Shown here: positions 7,645 through 29,060 of the stretch, in pieces | Numbering within the stretch: the first letter of the stretch is position 1 | Layout: every line of letters starts with the position of its first letter | Position numbers and translations under genes: made by a program | The notes under the pieces: generated by a model | What the model was told of the DNA's origin: nothing | Database searches by the model: none | Seen by the model: only the letters and a program-made list of their open reading frames with translations | NCBI GenBank assembly: GCA_946403295.1 | Contig: CAMIZL010000019.1 | Span: forward strand, 1-40,879 | Origin: an uncultured Clostridia bacterium | Lineage (GTDB): Bacteria > Bacillota > Clostridia > Lachnospirales > Lachnospiraceae | Direction of reading: 5' to 3' | DNA: 40,879 nucleotides

Positions 7645-8574
7645 ATGGAAGAGAAGGATAAAGTTGCATTGACGGAACTGGTGGAAAAATTTTCACTTAA
7701 GAATCTCACTCCCGATGTTGATATCAGCAGCATCTACATTACAAAGCCCGATATCAACAGACCGGCGCTTCAGCTTGCCGGATTCATGAAAGATTTTGAT
7801 AAGGAGCGTGTCCAGATCATCGGAAATGTGGAGCACTCCTATATGCAGGGACTTGAGGACGGCATCGAGAGAATGAAAAAGGTGCTGGGGCTCGGAATTC
7901 CGTGCGTGGTTTATTGTCGCGGGTTCGAGGTCGAGGACGAGATCATCGAAGAAGCCACGAGGCTCGGAGTTGCGATCTTTTTGACAGACAAGTCGACATC
8001 AAGCTTTATGGCCGAGATCATCAGATGGCTTAATGTACAGCTCGCACCCAGCATGACGATCCACGGAGTTCTTGTTGACGTTTACGGCGAAGGAATCCTT
8101 ATCACGGGCGAAAGCGGAATCGGTAAGAGCGAGGCGGCGCTTGAGCTTATAAAGCGCGGACACCGTCTTGTCAGCGACGATGCTGTCGTTATAAAGAAGG
8201 TCAGCGATGATACATTGATAGGCATGGCTCCCGAGATGACAAGGCATTTTATCGAGCTGCGCGGAATCGGGATCATAAACGTTAAAGCACTGTTTGGTGT
8301 TGAATCCGTAAAGAACACGCAACAGATCGACCTCGTAATAAACCTCGAGGAATGGAACAGGGACAAAGAATACGACAGGATGGGCCTCGAGGAGCATTAT
8401 GTGAATTTCCTCGGCAACAATGTTGTATGTCATAACATCCCCATCCGACCCGGTCGAAACCTTGCGATCATCTGCGAGTCCGCAGCGGTTAACTGCAGGC
8501 AGAAGAAGATGGGGTACGATGCCGCGAAGGAACTGTATCAGAGGGCTTTCGGAGGCGCAGGCGTACAGCTATAG
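7645..8574 (+). CDS. hprK: HPr kinase/phosphorylase
   Basis: A 309-residue bifunctional enzyme that phosphorylates and dephosphorylates Ser46 of HPr and Crh, the central switch of carbon catabolite control in Firmicutes. The N-terminal half (1-130) is the regulatory domain. The C-terminal half carries the P-loop GESGIGKSE (about 155-163) with RLVSDDAV just after, and the signature ELRGIGIINV. Length is normal for the family. An AGAAGGAGAGG site precedes the ATG. A Crh-like substrate candidate is encoded 3.3 kb downstream at 11864, and glucokinase follows directly, so the context is sugar regulation. Confidence 0.96.
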   Translation: MEEKDKVALTELVEKFSLKNLTPDVDISSIYITKPDINRPALQLAGFMKDFDKERVQIIGNVEHSYMQGLEDGIERMKKVLGLGIPCVVYCRGFEVEDEIIEEATRLGVAIFLTDKSTSSFMAEIIRWLNVQLAPSMTIHGVLVDVYGEGILITGESGIGKSEAALELIKRGHRLVSDDAVVIKKVSDDTLIGMAPEMTRHFIELRGIGIINVKALFGVESVKNTQQIDLVINLEEWNRDKEYDRMGLEEHYVNFLGNNVVCHNIPIRPGRNLAIICESAAVNCRQKKMGYDAAKELYQRAFGGAGVQL

Positions 8575-8635
8575 GATTTTGTTGACTTTGGGTCTGTAAT
8601 GATAAGTGTTGTATGAAAAGCTTTAAGGAGTAGAT

Positions 8636-9586
8636 ATGTCTAAATATGTTATAGGTACAGATATCGGAGGGACGAGCGTTAAACTCGGCCTCTTCACAAG
8701 CGAGGGCCGGCTTGTTCATAAATGGGAGATCAGGACCGACAGAAGTGAGGGTGGCATGAACGTGCCGACCGATATTGCCGATTCCGTAAAGAGGGTGATC
8801 GCTGAACAGGGCATAGGTGCATCGGATGTGATCGGTATGGGGATCGGAGTTCCGGGGCCTGTCAAGTCTGACGGGACCGTAATGAAGTGCGCGAACCTCG
8901 GGTGGGGTATCTTTAACGTGGCCGACAAGATGAAGGAGCTCACGGGATTTAACTGTACGGCAGTAAACGATGCAAATGCGGCGGCACTCGGTGAGATGTG
9001 GCAGGGAACCGCGAAGGGATTTAACAATCTTGTGTTTGTAACGCTCGGAACCGGCGTCGGCGGCGGTATCATCGTTGACGGTAAGGTTATCAGCGGTACT
9101 CACGGCGGTGGCGGTGAGATCGGTCATATATTCGTGGAGCCCGATGAAGAGGATGTCTGCGGATGCGGGTGCAAGGGTCATCTTGAGCAATATGCGTCGG
9201 CAACGGGGCTTTGCAGAGTGACAAGAAAGCTCCTTAAGGAGGGAAAATACAAAACGACTCTTAATGCGGATGTTCTTTCCGCAAGGATCGTTTTTGATGC
9301 CGCCAAGGCGGGCGACGAGCTAGCGAAGGAAGCGGTGGAGATCATGTGCAGATATCTTGCGCAGGCATTTTCGGGAATCGCGGCAACCGTTGATCCCGAG
9401 GTGTTCCTTATCGGCGGTGGAGTTTCCAAGGCGGGACCCATCATAACGGACACGATAAAGAAATATTATATTCCTTCAAATATGAACGTCCTCAGGGATC
9501 CCGCATTCGAGCTTGCATCGCTCGGAAACGATGCGGGAATATGGGGCGCGGCGTACAGCGCACTCGATTCGTACGGGAGCAAGTGA
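8636..9586 (+). CDS. glcK: ROK-family glucokinase
   Basis: A 316-residue ROK kinase expected to make glucose 6-phosphate from glucose and ATP. Visible are the N-terminal phosphate-binding loop (GTDIGGTSVKLGLF), the sugar-binding and catalytic region (NDANAAALGE), the GTGVGGGII turn, the ROK zinc motif (CGCGCKGHLEQYAS) and the late GGGVSKAG loop. Being a bare kinase without a DNA-binding helix-turn-helix, it is an enzyme and not a ROK repressor. An AAGGAG site lies 6 bases before the ATG. It is placed between hprK and murB. Another hexose substrate is possible, but the length and motifs fit GlcK best. Confidence 0.9.
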   Translation: MSKYVIGTDIGGTSVKLGLFTSEGRLVHKWEIRTDRSEGGMNVPTDIADSVKRVIAEQGIGASDVIGMGIGVPGPVKSDGTVMKCANLGWGIFNVADKMKELTGFNCTAVNDANAAALGEMWQGTAKGFNNLVFVTLGTGVGGGIIVDGKVISGTHGGGGEIGHIFVEPDEEDVCGCGCKGHLEQYASATGLCRVTRKLLKEGKYKTTLNADVLSARIVFDAAKAGDELAKEAVEIMCRYLAQAFSGIAATVDPEVFLIGGGVSKAGPIITDTIKKYYIPSNMNVLRDPAFELASLGNDAGIWGAAYSALDSYGSK

Positions 9587-9695
9587 AACGCCGTGCATGA
9601 ATGATCCGTGCGCGGAAATTTGTTTCGCATGGCGAAAACGAAACGCCCGCGCTAACGGTCGGGAACAGAGATGATTGTAAACGGAGAAGCTAGGG

Positions 9696-10601
9696 ATGAA
9701 CAAGATTACGGCATTACTCGGTGAAAAGCTTCCGCAACTTAATATCAGGGAGAACCTGCTCCTTTCGTCGTGTACGTCGTTCAGGACAGGCGGTGCCGCA
9801 GCGGCGGGAGCTTACCCCGAAACGACGAACGAGCTCGGGGAGCTCCTTTCGTTATGCGAACGGGAAGGTGTTCCTTTTTATATCCTCGGGAACGGGACAA
9901 ATGTTCTTGCACCTGACGAAGGATTCGATGGCGTTGTCGTGCTGACTGCGGGGATGCGTGATATAGACGTTAATGAGGAAACGGGTATTGCGACTGCCGG
10001 AGCGGGAGCACTTCTTTCGACACTTGCGCTCGAATGTGCCAAAAAGAGTCTTACGGGACTCGAATTTGCGCGGGGGATACCCGGAAGCGTCGGTGGCGCG
10101 GTCGTTATGAACGCCGGTGCGTACGGAGGGGAGATAAAGGACTGCCTTTTGTCTGCCGGGGTAATGGACGAAAAGAGCCGTGAAATATCCGACATGACAA
10201 ACGAACAGCTTGAGCTCGGCTACAGACACAGCGTGATACCGAAGAGAGGACTTGTTGTTCTCGGGGCGACTTTCAAGCTTGAAAAAGGCGACAAAACCGC
10301 GATATATGCCGCGATGGACGACTATGCGGCCAGGAGAAAAGAAAAGCAACCGCTTGAATATCCGAGTGCAGGGAGCACATTTAAACGTCCCGAAGGGTAT
10401 TTTGCCGGGAAGCTTATCGAGGATGCGGGACTTAAGGGCTTCAGCATAGGCGGTGCGCAGGTTTCCGAAAAACATGCGGGATTTGTGATCAATAAGGGAG
10501 GCGCGACCTCCGGTGACATAAAAGAACTGATCAAAGAAGTTCAAAGAAGAGTGTTTGAAAACAGCGGCGTGAGGCTTGAGACGGAAGTTCGATTTATGTG
10601 A
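9696..10601 (+). CDS. murB: UDP-N-acetylenolpyruvoylglucosamine reductase
   Basis: A 301-residue FAD enzyme that reduces UDP-GlcNAc-enolpyruvate to UDP-MurNAc in peptidoglycan synthesis. Motifs: SFRTGGAA near the N-terminus, FAD-binding ILGNGTNVLAP, GIPGSVGGAVVMNAGAYGGE, the catalytic region YRHSVIP, and AGSTFKRPEG with SIGGAQVSEKHAGF near the C-terminus. It is a type II, short-form MurB as expected in Firmicutes. The last codons and stop lie in an imperfect tandem repeat (10597-10687). In many Clostridia rapZ and yvcK lie between murB and whiA; here whiA follows directly. Confidence 0.96.
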   Translation: MNKITALLGEKLPQLNIRENLLLSSCTSFRTGGAAAAGAYPETTNELGELLSLCEREGVPFYILGNGTNVLAPDEGFDGVVVLTAGMRDIDVNEETGIATAGAGALLSTLALECAKKSLTGLEFARGIPGSVGGAVVMNAGAYGGEIKDCLLSAGVMDEKSREISDMTNEQLELGYRHSVIPKRGLVVLGATFKLEKGDKTAIYAAMDDYAARRKEKQPLEYPSAGSTFKRPEGYFAGKLIEDAGLKGFSIGGAQVSEKHAGFVINKGGATSGDIKELIKEVQRRVFENSGVRLETEVRFM

Positions 10602-10687
10602 GCGCAAGCGCGCGGTAAGATGGCGCGGTCAATGTGAGCGCAAACAGCATGGTAAGAGATTGCGGTCTGCGTGAGCACAAGCGGTCC
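10597..10687 (+). repeat. Imperfect tandem repeat between murB and whiA
   Basis: Three copies begin TGTGAGCGCAA (10597), TGTGAGCGCAA (10633) and CGTGAGCACAA (10670), with spacing of 36 and 37 bases. The shared inner parts are GGTAAGA and GCGGTC. The first copy covers the murB stop codon. This resembles the repeat at 7043, which also starts at a gene end. Confidence 0.7.
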
Positions 10688-10702
10688 GGAAGGAGGTTTG
10701 AA

Positions 10703-11827
10703 GTGTCTTTCTCGAATAATGTAAAAGAAGAGCTTTTTAAAACGCTCCCTCAGGCAAGGCACTGCAGGATCGCGGAACTTGCCGCTCTTATCGGCATGGG
10801 AGGCGCGGAGATCCGCACGGCGGGTCATGTCGGCCCGGGAGCGGAGAAGGTCGACCCGGGAGCGGAGAAGGTCGGCCCGGGAGCGGAGAAGGTCGGCCCG
10901 GGAAAAGAGGAGATCCGCACGGCGGCAGAGCAACCTGAAGCGTCGAGACGTGATGCTCCGGAGGGTCTTATATGCTTTGAAAACCGGATAGCCGGAATGA
11001 AGGCTCAGACGCTCATACGAAAAATATTCGGATACGACCTTCGTGAGTTGAGAGATGCCGAACAAGGCGGCAGGGAAAGCCGAAGAAATCTGTTTCTGCT
11101 CGGTGCTTCCGGGGAACAGATATCGATGATATTGAGTGCCGTTAAGATGAAAAAAAGCGATGACGGAATTTTTTTTGTTGACAAGCCGGGGCAAAATATC
11201 CATAATACTTTGCGAAACGATACTGTGCCCGGGATGATCGTATGCACACAGACGTGTTGCAAGAGAGCATTCCTGCGCGGCGCATTTCTCACATGCGGAT
11301 CGCTTTCCGATCCCGAGAAAGATTATCATCTCGAATTTGTCCTTAAGACGCAGGCTCAGGCGACCATGCTTCGCGGAGTCCTTTCGGCGCTTTCGGTTGA
11401 AGCCGGGACCGTGATGCGAAAGAAGGCATATGTGCTTTATATCAAGGACAGTGAGATAATAGCGACCGTGCTTACTTTGGCCGATGCGCATGTCGCCCTC
11501 ATGGAGCTTGAGAATATCAGGATCCTGAAGGAAGTGCGCAATGACGTAAACCGCCGTGTCAATTGCGAGACCGCCAACATAGGGAAGACTGTTCGGGCGG
11601 CATCCAAACAGGTGGAAGACATCAGATTCCTAGCTTCGCAGCCGGGATTTGACGACCTTCCCGAAGAGCTTAAAACTACGGCGGCGCTCAGGCTTGAACA
11701 TCCCGAAGTATCACTCTCGGAGCTCGCATTGCTGCATCCGGCAGCGGTGAGCAGGTCGGGCATCAATCACAGACTTCGCAAGCTTTGTGATCTTGCCGAG
11801 AAAATGAGAGATAACAAAAGAGGATAA
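10703..11827 (+). CDS. whiA: WhiA-type DNA-binding regulator with repeat insertion
   Basis: A 374-residue WhiA homologue: a LAGLIDADG-like N-terminal domain (with RGAFLTCGSLSDPEKDYHLEF in the middle) plus a C-terminal helix-turn-helix (LSELALLHPAAVSRSGINHRLRKL). WhiA affects cell division and chromosome segregation in Firmicutes and sporulation in actinomycetes. The GTG at 10703 is chosen because AAGGAGG lies 7 bases before it and the protein then begins VSFSNNVKEEL, the usual WhiA start; the frame is open further upstream. Family members are near 310-320 residues; the excess is a Gly-Pro-Glu-Lys repeat at about residues 36-74 between LAALIGMGG and the rest of the first domain. A Crh-like gene follows, as in Bacillus. 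Confidence 0.93.
   Translation: MSFSNNVKEELFKTLPQARHCRIAELAALIGMGGAEIRTAGHVGPGAEKVDPGAEKVGPGAEKVGPGKEEIRTAAEQPEASRRDAPEGLICFENRIAGMKAQTLIRKIFGYDLRELRDAEQGGRESRRNLFLLGASGEQISMILSAVKMKKSDDGIFFVDKPGQNIHNTLRNDTVPGMIVCTQTCCKRAFLRGAFLTCGSLSDPEKDYHLEFVLKTQAQATMLRGVLSALSVEAGTVMRKKAYVLYIKDSEIIATVLTLADAHVALMELENIRILKEVRNDVNRRVNCETANIGKTVRAASKQVEDIRFLASQPGFDDLPEELKTTAALRLEHPEVSLSELALLHPAAVSRSGINHRLRKLCDLAEKMRDNKRG
10807..10925 (+). repeat. In-frame minisatellite inside whiA
   Basis: Three 21-bp units (10829-10849, 10850-10870, 10871-10891) differ by only one base, and a fourth, diverged unit sits at 10892-10912. The block is bracketed by an exact 17-bp direct repeat, GGAGATCCGCACGGCGG, at 10807-10823 and 10909-10925. 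The copies are 102 bases (34 codons) apart, so the reading frame is kept. The encoded unit is VGPGAEK. Confidence 0.93.
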
Positions 11828-14089: not shown

Positions 14090-17000
14090 ATGGCTTTTAC
14101 ACATCTTCATGTCCATACCGAATACAGCTTATTGGACGGCTCCTCGAAGATCGGGGAGATTGTTAAGCATGCGCGGGAACTCGGACAGGATGCACTTGCC
14201 ATAACCGACCACGGCGTTATGTACGGCGTGATCGATTTCTACAAGAAGTGCGGGGAGGTCGGGATCAAGCCCATCATCGGTTGCGAGGTTTATGTCGCAC
14301 CCGGGTCGCGATTCGATAAGGAAGGAAGCACGGGCGACGACCGATACCGGCACCTCATATTACTGGCGAAGGACAACGGCGGTTACAGCAATCTGATCAA
14401 GATAGTATCGAAAGGATTCACCGAAGGATTTTATTATAAGCCGCGAATAGATATCGAAGTACTTAAGGAATACCACGAAGGCATCATAGCCCTTTCGGCA
14501 TGTCTTGCGGGTGAGATACCTTATTACCTGCGCAGAGGCCTCTACGACGAAGGCAAAGAGGCGGCGCTCGGGATGCTCGATATATTCGGAGAAGGGAATT
14601 ATTACCTGGAACTTCAGGACCACGGCATACCCGAGCAGGCGCTCGTTAACGAGCAGCTCGTCAGGATGTCCCGGGAAACGGGGATCCCGCTCGTTGCAAC
14701 CAACGATGTTCATTATACATACGCAGAGGACGCCGGGCCGCATGATGTGCTCCTTTGCATACAGACCCAGCGGAAGGTTTCCGATACCGACAGAATGAGG
14801 TACGAGGGAGGTCAGTTCTTCCTCAAATCGGAAGAGGAGATGAGAAGTCTCTTCCCCTATGCGCCCGAAGCGATCGAGAATACGGCAAAGATCGCCGAAA
14901 AGTGCAATGTGACATTTACTTTCAACGAATACAAGCTCCCGCATTTTGACGTGCCGGACGGATACAGCTCATATTCGTACCTCGAGAGCCTTTGTAAGAA
15001 GGGCTTGAAAGAAAGGTACGGCGGGCTGAAACCCGACGAATACGCCGGACTTGAGGAAAGACTTACTTTTGAGCTCCAAACGATCAAAGACATGGGATTT
15101 GTCGATTATTTCCTGATAGTTTGGGACTTCATACACTTCGCGAGGGAGAACGGCATTGCGGTCGGCCCCGGGCGAGGAAGTGCTGCGGGAAGCGTTGTGG
15201 CATATACATTAGGGATAACAAACATCGATCCCATCAGGTTTTCTCTCTTCTTTGAGAGATTCCTCAATCCTGAACGTGTTACGATGCCCGATATCGATAT
15301 TGATTTTTGCTATGTGCGCAGACCCGAGGTTATCGACTACGTCACGCGCAAATACGGTACGGACAGGGTAGTTCAGATCGTAACGTTCGGTACGCTCGCA
15401 GCGAGAGGCGTTATAAGAGACGTCGGTCGCGCGATGGACATGACATATGCCCAGACCGACAGGATAGCGAAGATGATCCCGATGGAGCTCAACATGACGC
15501 TCGACAAAGCGCTTGAGGTCAATCCTCAGCTTCGTGAGGCATACGCTTCCGACCGGGATGTGAAAAACCTGATCGACACCTCGAAGAGACTTGAGGGACT
15601 GCCCAGGCACACCTCGATCCATGCGGCGGGAGTCGTGATCGCACCCGCTCCGGCGGATGATTTCGTTCCGCTCTCGAGGTCGGGCGACGGAACGATCACA
15701 ACACAATATACGATGACAACTCTTGAGGAGCTCGGTCTTCTCAAGATGGACTTCCTGGGGCTACGGACGCTGACAGTGATTCAGGACACGGTGAAAGCCG
15801 TGAATGCGGCCTACCCCGACAGGAATCTTGATATAGACAAGATCGACCTTACCGATCCGAACATTTATGAGTTGATCTCGCAGGGTAGGACGGAAGGCGT
15901 CTTCCAGCTCGAAAGCCGAGGCATGACTTCTTTCATGAAGGAACTTTCTCCGTCATGCATAGAAGATATCATCGCGGGGATCGCCCTTTACCGGCCGGGA
16001 CCGATGGATTTCATCCCCAAGTACCTTAAGGGAAAACGAAATCCCGAGGCAGTCGTTTATGACTGCGAAGAACTAAGACCGATACTTTCGCCGACATACG
16101 GCTGTATCGTCTATCAGGAACAGGTTATGCAGATAGTACGTAACCTTGCGGGCTACAGTTTCGGAAGGTCCGACCTTGTAAGACGAGCCATGTCGAAGAA
16201 AAAGCAGGCGGTCATGGACCGTGAGCGGGCGAATTTCGTTTACGGTAATGAAGCCGAAGGCGTTCCGGGATGTAAGGCAAACGGAATCCCCGAAGCTGTC
16301 GCGAACAAGATATTTGACGATATGATCGACTTCGCCAAATATGCGTTCAATAAAGCGCACGCCGCGGCATATGCGGTGGTCGCGATGCAAACGGCATTTT
16401 TAAAATGCTATTACCCCGTGGAATTTATGGCGGCTCTACTGACGTCCGTCACAGAAAATTCCGACAAAGTCGCTAACTACATCTTCATATGCAGGAAGAT
16501 GGGGATCGGCCTCCTTCCTCCCGACGTCAATGAGGGAGGAAACAGCTTCACAGCCTGCGGCAAAGATATCCGTTATTCGCTCTCGGCCATCAAAGGACTC
16601 GGGGCGTCGGTCGTGGATGTGATAGTTTCCGACAGGGAAAGCGGCGGGCCTTACAAGAGCCTGAGGGACTTTATGGAAAGGCTCTCGTCGAAGGAAAGCA
16701 ACAAGCGTGTTATCGAAAGCCTCATAAAGGCCGGAGCGCTTGATTGTCTGCCGGGGTCAAGGCGACAAAAGATGGTTGTTTACAGCAGTATCCTCGAAGG
16801 GGTTGCCCTTGAGAAGAAGAAAAGCGTCACGGGTCAGCTGAGTATGTTCGATCTCGGTGACGAGGGGATCTCGAGAGAATCTGCCGATGAATTCCCGGAC
16901 ATCCCCGAATATGACGTTTCGGAGATGCTCGAATTTGAGAAAGAGGTCCTTGGCATTTATGTCAGCGGTCATCCGCTTAATGCTTATAAGGATATACTTG

Positions 17001-17572
17001 ATAAAAACGTGACCGCGACAAGCCTCGACTTCATCGTTGATGAGGAAACGGGCGAGACACAGCTCGCCGACAGGCAAAGGGCTGTGATCGGAGGAATAAT
17101 CGTGGCGAGGAGCGTTAAGACCACAAGGTCGGGTTCGCTCATGGCCTTCCTCACGGTCGAGGATCTGTACGGCAATATCGAGGTGCTCGTCTTCCCGAAG
17201 GATTTTGAGAAGCACGGCGACGAGCTTACGGAAGACATGAAAGTGCTCATAAAGGGCAACGTGAGTGTCGACGAGGAGAGAGGCGCAACGCTTCTTTACT
17301 CGGACTCGGTAAGCCTCTCGTCCTACCCGCGAACGTTGTGGGTAAAATTTGAGGACGAAGCCGCATATGAGGACGCAAAGAGTTTCCTTTCAACGGAACT
17401 CGCGGACAGGCTCGGACCGGACAGATGTATGGTCTACATTAAAAACAGCAACAAAAAGATACTGCTCGATGATGACGGCACAATGGCCACGCCGCAGCTT
17501 CTCGAAAAACTGCGGGAAAGGCTCGGCGAGGAAAACGTGGTCGTATCGGCGGGTACATATTGGAAAAATTGA
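14090..17572 (+). CDS. dnaE: DNA polymerase III subunit alpha (DnaE type)
   Basis: A 1160-residue replicative polymerase subunit, normal length for DnaE1. The N-terminal PHP domain starts FTHLHVHTEYSLLDG and contains AITDHGVMYG. The polymerase core has GPGRGSAAGS and the catalytic acidic motif MPDIDIDFC near residue 400. Later come the YQEQVMQI and KKKQAVMDRER segments, the helix-hairpin-helix region, and a C-terminal OB-fold (IIVARSVKTTRSGSLMAFL). It is the DnaE type and not PolC, since no 3'-5' exonuclease insertion is seen; in Firmicutes PolC usually exists as well. The AAGGAG site at about 14073 supports the ATG. A phosphofructokinase gene follows, a neighbour pair common in Firmicutes. 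Confidence 0.97.
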   Translation: MAFTHLHVHTEYSLLDGSSKIGEIVKHARELGQDALAITDHGVMYGVIDFYKKCGEVGIKPIIGCEVYVAPGSRFDKEGSTGDDRYRHLILLAKDNGGYSNLIKIVSKGFTEGFYYKPRIDIEVLKEYHEGIIALSACLAGEIPYYLRRGLYDEGKEAALGMLDIFGEGNYYLELQDHGIPEQALVNEQLVRMSRETGIPLVATNDVHYTYAEDAGPHDVLLCIQTQRKVSDTDRMRYEGGQFFLKSEEEMRSLFPYAPEAIENTAKIAEKCNVTFTFNEYKLPHFDVPDGYSSYSYLESLCKKGLKERYGGLKPDEYAGLEERLTFELQTIKDMGFVDYFLIVWDFIHFARENGIAVGPGRGSAAGSVVAYTLGITNIDPIRFSLFFERFLNPERVTMPDIDIDFCYVRRPEVIDYVTRKYGTDRVVQIVTFGTLAARGVIRDVGRAMDMTYAQTDRIAKMIPMELNMTLDKALEVNPQLREAYASDRDVKNLIDTSKRLEGLPRHTSIHAAGVVIAPAPADDFVPLSRSGDGTITTQYTMTTLEELGLLKMDFLGLRTLTVIQDTVKAVNAAYPDRNLDIDKIDLTDPNIYELISQGRTEGVFQLESRGMTSFMKELSPSCIEDIIAGIALYRPGPMDFIPKYLKGKRNPEAVVYDCEELRPILSPTYGCIVYQEQVMQIVRNLAGYSFGRSDLVRRAMSKKKQAVMDRERANFVYGNEAEGVPGCKANGIPEAVANKIFDDMIDFAKYAFNKAHAAAYAVVAMQTAFLKCYYPVEFMAALLTSVTENSDKVANYIFICRKMGIGLLPPDVNEGGNSFTACGKDIRYSLSAIKGLGASVVDVIVSDRESGGPYKSLRDFMERLSSKESNKRVIESLIKAGALDCLPGSRRQKMVVYSSILEGVALEKKKSVTGQLSMFDLGDEGISRESADEFPDIPEYDVSEMLEFEKEVLGIYVSGHPLNAYKDILDKNVTATSLDFIVDEETGETQLADRQRAVIGGIIVARSVKTTRSGSLMAFLTVEDLYGNIEVLVFPKDFEKHGDELTEDMKVLIKGNVSVDEERGATLLYSDSVSLSSYPRTLWVKFEDEAAYEDAKSFLSTELADRLGPDRCMVYIKNSNKKILLDDDGTMATPQLLEKLRERLGEENVVVSAGTYWKN

Positions 17573-17672
17573 TCACTCAGAAAGAATTCTTTTGGAACTC
17601 CCGCAAAAGCCTTCATAAGCGCTGATGCGGGACAGGACGGGAAACCGAACGTTTCTTCACGGAGGTGACAAA

Positions 17673-19820
17673 ATGGCAGCTAAAGCAAAGACATCTAAAG
17701 AAATAAAAAGATCGGAAGAAATCAAAGAAGTTAAAGACACAGAGAAAACGGTAAAAGTAGTTAAAAGCAGCAAGAAAGATACAATGATAAAAGATGACGC
17801 ATATGCAAAGATACCCATGGGTGAGGGTAAAACGGTCAGGAAGATCGGAGTTTTGACGAGCGGCGGCGATGCGCCCGGAATGAATGCGGCGGTACGTGCG
17901 GTAGTCAGAACAGCAATAAATTACGGTATGGAGGTTGTCGGTATCAGGCGCGGATTCTCGGGACTCATCGAGAACGATTATGTACCGCTCACCGGCAGAA
18001 GCGTTGCCGATACCATAGCAAAGGGCGGCACGTTCCTTTATACGGCCAGATGCCCCGAGATGATCACAAAAGAGGGGCAGGACACGGCAGCAAAGAACTG
18101 CGTTGAGCAGGGAATAGACGCACTCGTTGTTATCGGCGGAGACGGCTCCTTCAGGGGATGTTTGTCGCTCGCGGAGCGCGGTATAAACGTTATCGGTATT
18201 CCGGGAACCATAGACCTTGACATCGCGTGCACCGAATATACGATCGGATTCGATACAGCCATCAATACGGCGATGGAAGCGATCGACAAGATCAGGGACA
18301 CATCGACATCCCGCGAGAGATGCTCGATCATTGAGGTTATGGGACGCCATGCCGGATATATCGCGCTTTGGTGCGGTCTTGCAAACGGTGCCGAGGCGGT
18401 TCTCACGACCGAGCTTTACAAATACGAAGAGAAGAAACTTATCGACGATATCGAGCTTAAGCGCAAGAACGGCAGACAGCATTATATCATCATCAATGCC
18501 GAAGGGATCGGTGATTCCGAAGGCATGGCAAAGCGTATCGAATATGCGACGGGAATGTCGACATCCGCTACCATACTCGGCTATCTGCAGCGCGGCGGCA
18601 GCCCCACATGTAAGGACAGAGTCTATGCGTCGGCCATGGGTGCCAAGGCCGTGGACATCCTTTACAAAGGCGGCTGCAACAGAGTTGTTGCATATAAGAA
18701 CGGCGGCTTCTGCGATTTTGACATGAAGGAAGCTCTGGCAATGAAGAAGGATCTTGATCCCTTCCTTGTTGACATGCTCGGAAAGCTCACGAGAAAGGGC
18801 GAAGGAAAGGGACTCCTCAGCGAAGGCATGCTTCCCGCAGACGTTTCGACCGGAAACTGCAAGTCTATCGGCGTTCTTACGAGTGGCGACGATGCACCCG
18901 GTATGAATGCCGCTATCCGCGCGGTCGTAAGATCCGCGATCGGATACAACATGAGAGTATTCGGATTCCGCAGAGGTTTCGCGGGTCTTATCGAGAAGGA
19001 TTATCTCGAGATGACAAATAAGACCATGTCCGAGACCGTACAACTCGGCGGAACACAGCTTCTCGCGTCCGACTGCCCCGAATTTTTGACGGAGGAAGGA
19101 CAGGAGAAGGCGATAGAAACCCTTAAGGAACTCGGGCTTGACGCACTTATCGTTCTCGGAGGAAACGGAACGATGCGCGGCGGACTCGACCTCATCAAGA
19201 AGGGTATTAATGTTATTGGTATCCCCGCAACCATCGACTGTGAGGTTGCGTGCACCGAATATACGATCGGCTTTGACACTGCCGTTAATACGGCAATGCA
19301 GGCAATTGACAAGATCAGGGATACATCGCAGTCCCACGAGCGTTGCAGCGTTATCGAAGTTGCCGGTAAGCGTTCGGGATTCAATGCACTTTGGTGCGGT
19401 ATCGCAAACGGAGCTGAGGAGATCCTCATACCCGAATTTTACGATCGTGATGAGCAGCGTATCATAAGCGAGATCATCAGCAAGAAGAAGCTCGGCAAGA
19501 GACTTCATCTGATCGTCAACGCTCACAGCGTGGGCAGATCGGGTTCCCTCGCCAAGAATATCGAATTTGCGACCGGACTTGAGACACGTGCCAACATTCT
19601 CGGCCTTGTAGAGAGTGGCGGACGCCCTACCTGTATGGACAGGGTATTCGCATGTGCTATGGGAGGAAAAGCTGTCGAGGCGCTTAACAAAGGCAGCCGT
19701 AACAGAATAGTGGCTTTCTGTAACGGTGAATTTGTCGATTTCGATTTCGAAAAGGCAATGCGTATGGAAAAAACGCCCGATACTTATCTTTATACCATGT
19801 CCAAAAAGCTTTCGAGATAA
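17673..19820 (+). CDS. pfkA: Tandem two-domain 6-phosphofructokinase fusion
   Basis: 715 residues, about twice the roughly 320 of bacterial PfkA. A lysine-rich tail (1-56) precedes two full PFK domains. Domain 1 (about 57-375) keeps LTSGGDAPGMNA, GGDGS (155-159), PGTIDLD (177-183) with the catalytic Asp181, MGRHAGY and LQRGGSPT; the His that normally contacts fructose 6-phosphate is Tyr304. The GGDG and PGTID glycines suggest ATP rather than pyrophosphate as donor. Domain 2 (about 397-715) has lost several sites: SGDDAPG for SGGDAPG (Asp406), GGNGT for GGDGS (Asn498), PATIDCE (518-524), AGKRSG for MGRxxG and VESGG for IQRGG. Domain 1 probably catalyses glycolytic phosphorylation and domain 2 regulates it. 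The ATG at 17673 has a GGAGGTGA site. Confidence 0.93.
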   Translation: MAAKAKTSKEIKRSEEIKEVKDTEKTVKVVKSSKKDTMIKDDAYAKIPMGEGKTVRKIGVLTSGGDAPGMNAAVRAVVRTAINYGMEVVGIRRGFSGLIENDYVPLTGRSVADTIAKGGTFLYTARCPEMITKEGQDTAAKNCVEQGIDALVVIGGDGSFRGCLSLAERGINVIGIPGTIDLDIACTEYTIGFDTAINTAMEAIDKIRDTSTSRERCSIIEVMGRHAGYIALWCGLANGAEAVLTTELYKYEEKKLIDDIELKRKNGRQHYIIINAEGIGDSEGMAKRIEYATGMSTSATILGYLQRGGSPTCKDRVYASAMGAKAVDILYKGGCNRVVAYKNGGFCDFDMKEALAMKKDLDPFLVDMLGKLTRKGEGKGLLSEGMLPADVSTGNCKSIGVLTSGDDAPGMNAAIRAVVRSAIGYNMRVFGFRRGFAGLIEKDYLEMTNKTMSETVQLGGTQLLASDCPEFLTEEGQEKAIETLKELGLDALIVLGGNGTMRGGLDLIKKGINVIGIPATIDCEVACTEYTIGFDTAVNTAMQAIDKIRDTSQSHERCSVIEVAGKRSGFNALWCGIANGAEEILIPEFYDRDEQRIISEIISKKKLGKRLHLIVNAHSVGRSGSLAKNIEFATGLETRANILGLVESGGRPTCMDRVFACAMGGKAVEALNKGSRNRIVAFCNGEFVDFDFEKAMRMEKTPDTYLYTMSKKLSR

Positions 19821-26870: not shown

Positions 26871-29060
26871 ATGAGGAAACACGTGACAATGAAAAAGGAA
26901 ACGTTATGGGCATGCCTTATCTTGCTATGCCTGCTGCTCACGGGGTGTGATGCAGGCAGCGGCACGGACGGCACCACCCTAAGGACTACAGAAGTAGAAA
27001 GAAACGCTTCCGGGCAAAACGAAATCGAAGTGACAGATGCCGTGCAAGACGAAATCGAAATGACATGTGCCGTGCAAAGCGAAATCGAAATGACAGGCGC
27101 CGGGCAAGACGAAATCGAAGTGACAGATGCAGGGCAAAACGAAATCGAAATGACAGGCACCGTGCAAAGCGAAAGTGAAACGTCCGACCCCATAGACGAG
27201 ACTACGTTTGTAGAACAAAAAGTCGTTATCAGCGAGATATTGTCATCAAATTCAGGATATATGGAGCACGAAGGAGACCGGTGCGACATGATCGAAATCG
27301 CAAATACCTCGGACACGGATATCGATCTCTTTAAATACTATATTTCGGATACGCCCTTTAATCCCATGAAGGCAAGGCTTCAGGGAACGATCCCTGCGGG
27401 CGGGTTCGCCGTCTTCTACTGTGTGGGTGACACGGCGGACGCCGAAAAGAACGAGCTTCCTTTTAAGATCTCCTCATCGGGAGAAACGCTTGTATTGTCG
27501 ACGGATAACGGCAGGACGATCGAAACGGTCACGGTCCCTGCACTCGAAAAAAATACGGGGTATGCGAGAAACGAAAACGGTGAATTCGCTGTTACTTCAC
27601 GCCTCACATTCGGAAGTGCAAACAAATTTGCTGATGAACAGACGATCCTTCCCGATGTCAGTCCCGCGGACGGAACGAGAGGGACGGGCACGCTCACTAT
27701 CACATTTGATCCCCGCGAAGGAACGGAGATCTTCTATACATTGGACGGCAGCGTCCCGATGGGATCGTCGGACAGATATGACAAGCCCATAAGCATTGAA
27801 AAGACCACGACGATCCGGATCCTTGTGAGAAACGGGGAGGAAGAGGCAGTTGCGTCATATACGTTCTTTGTCGGAGAGCCTGATGCCGCGCTTGACGATG
27901 TGTGCATCGGTATCGGAACAGGTGATCTTTCGGATCTCAATGCCTACCCCCATAGCAAAAGGCGTTATCCCGTGAGTTTTGCGATGTACCGCGAAGGCGT
28001 CAAGGTTTTCGACGAGACATGCGGCATGAACGCGACCGGAAACACGAGCGCAGTATATGACAAGAAAAGTTACAGGCTTAAGTTCTCAAAAGAGTTCGGA
28101 GCGAGCAGGTTACGCTATAAGGTCTTTGATGACCTTGACATCGACAGCTTCGATTCGCTCGTGCTGCGCGGCGGGTCGCAGGATAATGAAGATGTCATCA
28201 TAAAGGACGAACTTGTCCCGAAGATATTAAGACAGGGCAATCTGGTCGATGGGGTGCTCACGACGCACTATCGGCCCGTAAATCTGTACATCGATGGGGA
28301 ATATCGGGGACTATACTATATACGCGAGCATATCGACGGGCACATGATCGCTTCGCACTACGGCTGCGCACATGAGGACGTTACGATCGTCGAGCAGTGT
28401 GTCGAGGTAAAGTGCGGGAGTGCGGGGAAGGAGTGGACCGGGCTTTGGGACTATGTCGCTAAGAATGACCTGAGGGATCCGGACGTATATGAATATGTGT
28501 CGTCGCGCGTTTCGCTCGAAAGCGTGGCCGATTATTATATAATTCAGATCTGGCTGCATAACATTGATCCCGATAACGTCCGTGTTTATAAGGTAGGAGA
28601 CGACAAGTGGAGATATGCGTTATATGATCTCGATCTGACGCTCACCGACGACGGCACGAACGGAGCAGCGTTTATGCTGGGATGGTACAACACGGGGCTA
28701 TATACGTTTAATGCCCTTGTATATAAGCTTTTGCAAAATCACGAGTTCATGGAGCTTTTCCTGTCGAGGATGCAGCTGCTCTTTACAACGATCCTTTCGG
28801 AGGAAAAGGTGGTAGCGATCGTTGACTCTTTTGTCGCCGGGATCGATCACGATATGGAGCGGAGCTGCGGACTTTGGGGACCGAGGAAGGATTCGAGCGG
28901 GGGAGTTTATTATATCAATTATTCGACGTGGAAGAGAAGGATCGAACAATTCAAATCGAGGTTCAAGGGGCGCACGTCGCTCGTGGCGTCCGAATTCGTG
29001 CGGCTCAAAGGAGTGAGTGACGAACTGGTCCGAAAATATCTGTCGGAGATAATTAAGTGA
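26871..29060 (+). CDS. CotH-kinase-family lipoprotein with lamin-tail and chitobiase-like domains
   Basis: A 729-residue surface protein. The signal peptide ends in lipobox LLTGC, so Cys26 (Cys20 if the in-frame ATG at 26889 is used) would be lipidated. A 10-residue tandem repeat (about 49-103) follows, then a lamin-tail-like domain (about 118-205, VVISEILSSNSG), a chitobiase C-terminal-like domain (about 265-330, IFYTLDGSVPMGS), and the CotH domain (about 345-650, DKKSYRLKFSKEFG, VLRGGSQDNED, YRGLYYIREHIDGH). CotH of Bacillus is a spore-coat protein kinase; homologues in Clostridia with outward-facing domains have unclear targets. lgt, which lipidates such proteins, starts 9 bases later. Confidence 0.85.
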   Translation: MRKHVTMKKETLWACLILLCLLLTGCDAGSGTDGTTLRTTEVERNASGQNEIEVTDAVQDEIEMTCAVQSEIEMTGAGQDEIEVTDAGQNEIEMTGTVQSESETSDPIDETTFVEQKVVISEILSSNSGYMEHEGDRCDMIEIANTSDTDIDLFKYYISDTPFNPMKARLQGTIPAGGFAVFYCVGDTADAEKNELPFKISSSGETLVLSTDNGRTIETVTVPALEKNTGYARNENGEFAVTSRLTFGSANKFADEQTILPDVSPADGTRGTGTLTITFDPREGTEIFYTLDGSVPMGSSDRYDKPISIEKTTTIRILVRNGEEEAVASYTFFVGEPDAALDDVCIGIGTGDLSDLNAYPHSKRRYPVSFAMYREGVKVFDETCGMNATGNTSAVYDKKSYRLKFSKEFGASRLRYKVFDDLDIDSFDSLVLRGGSQDNEDVIIKDELVPKILRQGNLVDGVLTTHYRPVNLYIDGEYRGLYYIREHIDGHMIASHYGCAHEDVTIVEQCVEVKCGSAGKEWTGLWDYVAKNDLRDPDVYEYVSSRVSLESVADYYIIQIWLHNIDPDNVRVYKVGDDKWRYALYDLDLTLTDDGTNGAAFMLGWYNTGLYTFNALVYKLLQNHEFMELFLSRMQLLFTTILSEEKVVAIVDSFVAGIDHDMERSCGLWGPRKDSSGGVYYINYSTWKRRIEQFKSRFKGRTSLVASEFVRLKGVSDELVRKYLSEIIK
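27015..27180 (+). repeat. 30-bp tandem repeat in the CotH lipoprotein gene
   Basis: Five full 30-bp units begin at 27015, 27045, 27075, 27105 and 27135, with a sixth, broken one at 27165. Each begins CAA(A/G)(A/G)C GAAATCGAA and encodes about QDEIEMTGAG. The reading frame is kept. The result is an acidic, Thr-rich stalk right after the lipid anchor. Confidence 0.95.

Follow-up and report, generated by a model that had tools for sequence, protein, structure and literature searches.

The tandem 6-phosphofructokinase (PFK) of eukaryotes is the textbook example of a gene duplication that created new control sites, and it goes back to one ancient event. The C-terminal half of the eukaryotic enzyme keeps its sugar-phosphate pocket, according to the accessible parts of a 2025 review, which mention tandem duplication for eukaryotic PFKs only (PMC12203962). 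In the same parts, the bacterial ATP-dependent PFKs with solved structures are described as homotetramers of subunits of 319-330 residues (PMC12203962). In these enzymes, His249 and Arg252 of one subunit bind the substrate at its 6-phosphate together with two residues of the neighbouring subunit, Arg162 and Arg243 (available portions of PMC7319554 and, for Arg162, of PMC12203962). Here we describe a PFK gene of double length in an uncultured Clostridia bacterium of the family Lachnospiraceae (assembly GCA_946403295.1, contig CAMIZL010000019.1); the 40,879 nucleotides analyzed are called the window hereafter. The gene is a genuine, genus-wide, and relatively young bacterial tandem PFK with a pseudoenzyme half; it is apparently a case of convergence with the fusion of eukaryotes, among which we do not class it. 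A search of the literature returned no bacterial tandem PFK in titles or the beginnings of abstracts among the matches listed, which is weak evidence of absence given that subscription journals are mostly uncovered.

The gene (17673..19820, + strand) encodes 715 residues and lies directly 3' of dnaE. Its frame is free of stops from the first ATG (17625-19820, +) and from the ATG that follows GGAGGTGACAAA (17673-19820); a Shine-Dalgarno-like GGAGGTGA stands 5' of the latter, which is likely the start of the protein. Residues such as Tyr304 are numbered from this ATG, and family positions (R72, R243, and the like) on the PFK of Geobacillus stearothermophilus. The two PFK domains that the initial annotation had read in a single frame are confirmed. 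The Pfam profile PFK (PF00365) gives the complete protein 628.6 bits and matches it in two places, 17841-18662 and 18867-19685, i.e., over positions 1-277 and 2-277 of the 277 in the profile, with no stop or frameshift between the halves. The score against TIGR02482 (PfkA) exceeds the cut-off (702.8 bits vs 371.35, in two stretches), and those against TIGR02478 (eukaryotic tandem PFK; 410.3 vs 708.4) and TIGR02477 (PFK dependent on pyrophosphate, PPi; 184.4 vs 587.95) remain below it. The N-terminal domain covers residues 55-374 (17835..18794, +) and the C-terminal one residues 397-715 (18861..19817, +). They are joined by a linker of about 22 residues (375-396; 18795..18860, +), residue 374 being aligned with the end (KLSR) of many single PFKs. 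The lysine-rich N-terminal tail (54 residues; 17673..17834, +), earlier listed as a further oddity, is real and basic. However, the species of the genus differ in how long it is and in its sequence: in 13 doubles, 20-73 residues precede the domain if the first ATG of each frame is taken as the start.

Judged by its residues, the C-terminal half is not expected to work as a PFK, and comparison with its homologs marks it as a putative pseudoenzyme. Truncated pieces from contig ends, namely the N parts of L052 and L055 and the C part of L053, are excluded from the counts of halves given here. Seven positions, R72, D103, G124, M169, R171, H249, and R252, are gone in 23/23 C-halves, and G11 in 22/23, in line with the earlier claim that the second half lacks catalytic residues of its own. 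The replacements are M169A, H249L/I/S, and R252C/S/G/N in 23/23 copies, and R171 gives way to K, Y, M, T, F, V, or A. The roles of R72, G108, D127, D129, R162, R243, H249, and R252 follow the accessible parts of PMC12203962, PMC10339645, and PMC7319554. When the 114 positions that are invariant in 36 single PFKs are considered, 12 are lost in all copies of the C-half, and these losses affect 5 of the 13 in-subunit ligand positions and 7 of the 101 others (Fisher p 0.0044). Fifteen ligand positions of the C-half also vary more than its positions do overall (mean entropy 0.709 vs 0.414; resampling P 0.035). The motif differences previously noted between the first and the second half (GGDGS/GGNGT, PGTIDLD/PATIDCE, SGGDAPG/SGDDAPG, QRGG/ESGG) are all present, and so is Tyr304 in the first. 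However, neither Tyr304 nor PATID is by itself the mark of a dead or odd enzyme, as 5 of the 36 single PFKs have a tyrosine at this place and PATID occurs in one single PFK. The latter, L107, belongs to a related genus and has Ala for Gly124 in an otherwise intact active site.

The N-terminal half shows the reverse pattern. In the window, it keeps G11, R72, D103, G124, D127, D129, M169, R171, E222, and R252, and the listed in-subunit positions are retained in 22/22 N-halves except for H249, which is a tyrosine (Tyr304 here). The roles of G11, D103, G104, G124, T125, M169, G170, R171, and E222 are those that we take these residues to have. Gly104 and Gly124 presumably make this half ATP-type, following a rule by which Asp104 and Lys124 would indicate the PPi type, and the N-half is predicted to use ATP. 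Only three of the 114 positions invariant in single PFKs are lost in all N-halves, namely H160, K213, and R243, and the C-half keeps all three in 23/23 copies. The place of Arg243 is taken by Ser (12) or Thr (10) in the 22 N-halves, against Arg in 36/36 single PFKs; in the window, it is Ser298 (codon at 18564..18566, +). The C-half retains both residues that a neighbour supplies, Arg162 and Arg243, in 23/23 copies, which here are Arg557 (codon at 19341..19343, +) and Arg639 (codon at 19587..19589, +). It had been suggested from Tyr304 that the active site may draw on both halves. The loss of Arg243 in the N-half and its retention in the C-half do support a shared site; Tyr304 is not the evidence for it.

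We propose that a doubling and fusion of the dnaE-linked pfkA took place in the common ancestor of a single genus of rumen Lachnospiraceae. The N-half would perform the chemistry. The C-half, having lost its own site for ATP and fructose-6-phosphate (F6P), would persist as a built-in partner subunit, keeping the assembly in one piece and supplying the N-half site with Arg162 and Arg243 to bind the substrate's 6-phosphate. An assembly of four lobes from two chains may pack N to N or N to C across the active-site interface, and the residues point to N to C, because the C-half has lost its pocket yet kept the arginines that can be lent, and the N-half has kept its pocket and lost one of these arginines. 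Arg243 would be dispensable in the N-half because only the site of a C-half would use it. The enzyme would then form a homodimer in which two sites are live and the other two dead. A live N-half with a dead C-half as arginine-lending partner is, taken as a whole, the best explanation that we can offer, and one in which we have moderate confidence.

Several observations weigh against this explanation. The C-half retains T125, D127, G104, G108, and G170 in 23/23 copies, as well as D129 and E222 in 14/23, all of them ligand positions of its own. The N-half also retains Arg162, which it would not need if the C-half were the only supplier. The chance that one of three residues lost in the N-half is a donated arginine is not negligible (hypergeometric P 0.052), and the argument from Arg243 depends on one residue and on a change that probably happened once, in an ancestor of these related sequences. 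Furthermore, the N-to-C pairing is deduced from residues, and, taken alone, it could as easily prove wrong as right. Finally, the ratios of nonsynonymous to synonymous changes (dN/dS, NG86) are low in both halves, which indicates that purifying selection maintains both, but these values (0.024 for N and 0.029 for C in 15 close pairs; for the remaining pairs with dS < 1.5, 0.028 for N in 23 and 0.051 for C in 11; L054 left out of the sets) are rough, as mean dS is 0.87-1.11 and thus near 1.

The alternative that survives best follows the eukaryotic plan: the sites of the N-halves would pair with each other, and the old site of the C-half would have become a regulatory pocket for a phosphorylated metabolite, bound through Arg162 and Arg243. 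This would account for the T125, D127, G170, Arg162, and Arg243 found in every C-half, and for E222 where it is kept (14/23). Human PFK has this plan, with Arg201 and Arg292 of PFKL serving the adjoining active site (accessible parts of PMC12203962), and each of the human effector sites includes residues of both lobes (from the available part of a preprint, PMC12889660). However, the N-half would then be left without any Arg243. Moreover, the former F6P pocket of the C-half has not been kept as an effector site: M169, H249, and R252 are gone in 23/23 copies, the ligand positions drift between species, as the entropies given above indicate, and nothing in this half suggests that a pocket for sugar phosphate has been conserved. 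The residues of the effector site proper, R21, R25, R154, and E187, are retained in both halves, with K213R in the N-half and D59E in the C-half. Control by fructose 2,6-bisphosphate was considered and rejected: the PFK-2 gene (PF01591, 6PF2K) has no match in the genome, in a search that matched 3 of 14 control genomes, none above the cut-off. The "regulatory" divergence of the second half put forward in the initial annotation thus finds no support in these data, and we regard the eukaryote-like plan as doubtful.

A change of substrate in the N-half, for example to sedoheptulose 7-phosphate, would make Arg243 and His249 dispensable and reduce the C-half to a mere scaffold. H249Y does occur in PFKs that depend on pyrophosphate and accept sedoheptulose 7-phosphate as a further substrate (available part of PMC10339645). 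However, Arg243 is present in the five single PFKs with Tyr249, the N-half is intact at its other listed positions for F6P and ATP, and the retention of Arg243 in every C-half would be left without explanation, which makes this scenario quite improbable. An assembly artefact, a frameshift, or a pair of active domains would be in keeping with the fact that all 12 named relatives are metagenome-assembled genomes, but is hardly credible given one frame in 21/24 genomes, strong purifying selection, and the loss of the C-half catalytic residues in every copy examined.

The double PFK is a trait of the genus. It is complete and in one frame in 21 of the 24 genomes of the genus to which the window belongs, so that 20 other genomes hold both domains uninterrupted, in agreement with the earlier reading of an intact frame. 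Two further genomes (G165 and G155) have it cut by contig ends, and the last one (G170, an assembly 71% complete) gave no match. The 12 named loci of the clade are all metagenome-assembled records of "Lachnospiraceae bacterium". The titles of four records cite the omasum, rumen, or reticulum of goat or water buffalo, and the RUG and RUI codes of the remaining ones presumably denote rumen sets; the genus is apparently one of rumen Lachnospiraceae.

Outside the genus, we found only single PFKs among the matches listed. A first search of the family gave a match in 148 of 150 genomes, and a search with the C-half in 397 genomes of the family (334 genera) gave a match at E 1e-100 in 350. In these family searches, the only doubles among the matches listed were those of G000 and G134, both members of the genus. 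The copies of the genus score 1e-167 or better with the C-half, and the next match, a frame of 335 residues with 59% identity, scores 7.9e-129; a C-half of this lineage present elsewhere would hence rank at the top. Searches at larger scales tell less. TIGR02478 had no match above its cut-off among those listed for 391 genomes of the class (best E 8.2e-36), but this search is blind to such doubles because that of the window fails the cut-off too. A scan of 398 genomes of the phylum at E 1e-85 gave no match and is uninformative, as the genome of the window was itself silent and there was no positive control. A tblastn search of plasmids returned 76 records; the 10 listed each span about 950-1060 bases, as expected for one PFK to which both halves match.

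The initial annotation also placed the gene next to dnaE, and this neighbourhood (dnaE at 14090..17572, +) is informative about its source. Ten of the ten near single PFKs lie directly after dnaE, as do three more with reported frames of 451-834 residues that have one PFK domain each. The double thus occupies the ordinary place of the ordinary gene, and the dnaE-linked pfkA is the local source. It is also the sole PfkA-type ATP-PFK found in the genome, which is 99.2% complete. PF00365 matches just one other protein there, a PPi-type PFK of about 590 residues (TIGR02477; contig C11, L003:814-2589) with GGDDS and PKTID, and the genome has three matches to the PfkB family. A second long PFK (open frame of 469-594 residues, 32-37% identity) was seen in 18/24 genomes of the genus. 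In related genera, G025, G048, G067, and G071 each have two separate PFKs closely similar to PfkA, possible raw material for a fusion.

The tree of 74 sequences groups the N-halves in one clade and the C-halves in another, with support of 100 each, and the two clades are sisters (96/79) inside the single PFKs of Lachnospiraceae. With more near singles and the halves thinned to 12 each, out of 22 N-halves and 23 C-halves, a tree of 60 sequences places both halves in one small cluster (89/87) without resolving their sisterhood, and holding the two clades together is not rejected (p-AU 0.334). The stem of the C-half is longer in both trees (1.03 and 1.25 changes per column, vs 0.31 and 0.43 for the N-half), and its identity to the Lachnospiraceae singles compared is 53-60%, vs 65-71% for the N-half. 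The internal duplication proposed at first remains the simplest reading, with its origin placed at the stem of the genus and both halves among Lachnospiraceae singles, but the trees do not prove it; a fusion of two close paralogues would be a less simple account. The acquisition of the gene from a eukaryote was rejected, as both halves lie among Lachnospiraceae singles in trees that contain no eukaryotic sequence.

Other features of the window were recorded alongside. The genes at 7645-11827 (+), upstream of dnaE, encode HPr kinase, a ROK-family sugar kinase, MurB, and WhiA, which puts carbon-control genes near the PFK gene. A CotH-kinase protein with lamin-tail and chitobiase-like domains is encoded at 26871-29060 (+). 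Opposite the double PFK, there is an antisense open frame of 637 residues (17613-19526, -). We discarded it as a gene since it is not conserved, the longest stop-free stretch being 127-496 residues in 12 relatives, and it seems to be a side effect of codon usage.

A young fusion with single-copy relatives at the same locus would allow the order of the losses to be reconstructed and tested. The system would bear on whether a pseudoenzyme half must regulate and on whether the pairing of subunits can go either way, and studies of cooperativity would gain a naturally occurring enzyme in which a live PFK subunit is obligately paired with a dead one. We are evenly divided on whether it represents an independent bacterial replay of the duplication of animals and fungi with the opposite assembly, in which the C-half would be kept for two arginines and a surface, and not for the sensing of ligands.

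Compared with bacterial PfkA (TIGR02482), as in Escherichia coli and G. stearothermophilus, each half matches over the full length, the catalytic residues of the N-half are kept, and the dnaE-linked locus is alike, but two subunits form one chain here, and activity is possible at only half of the sites. The PPi-dependent PFKs (TIGR02477) belong to the same superfamily; the one of this genome has GGDDS and PKTID, where the N-half of the double enzyme has Gly104 and Gly124. The closest likeness is to the eukaryotic tandem PFK-1 (human PFKL, PFKM, and PFKP, yeast alpha and beta; TIGR02478), which combines a catalytic N-half and a dead C-half, as the present enzyme does by its residues. The two are apparently of separate origin, since the halves described here lie near Lachnospiraceae singles. 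In human PFKL, Arg201 and Arg292, which we take to be the N-lobe equivalents of Arg162 and Arg243, are kept in the N-half, whereas the equivalent of Arg243 is Ser or Thr in all 22 N-halves of the genus. The sugar pocket of the C-half is kept in the eukaryotic enzymes and not in this one. Finally, the halves of human platelet PFK are 27% identical (available part of PMC12889660), whereas those of the double PFK share 55.5% identity on average.
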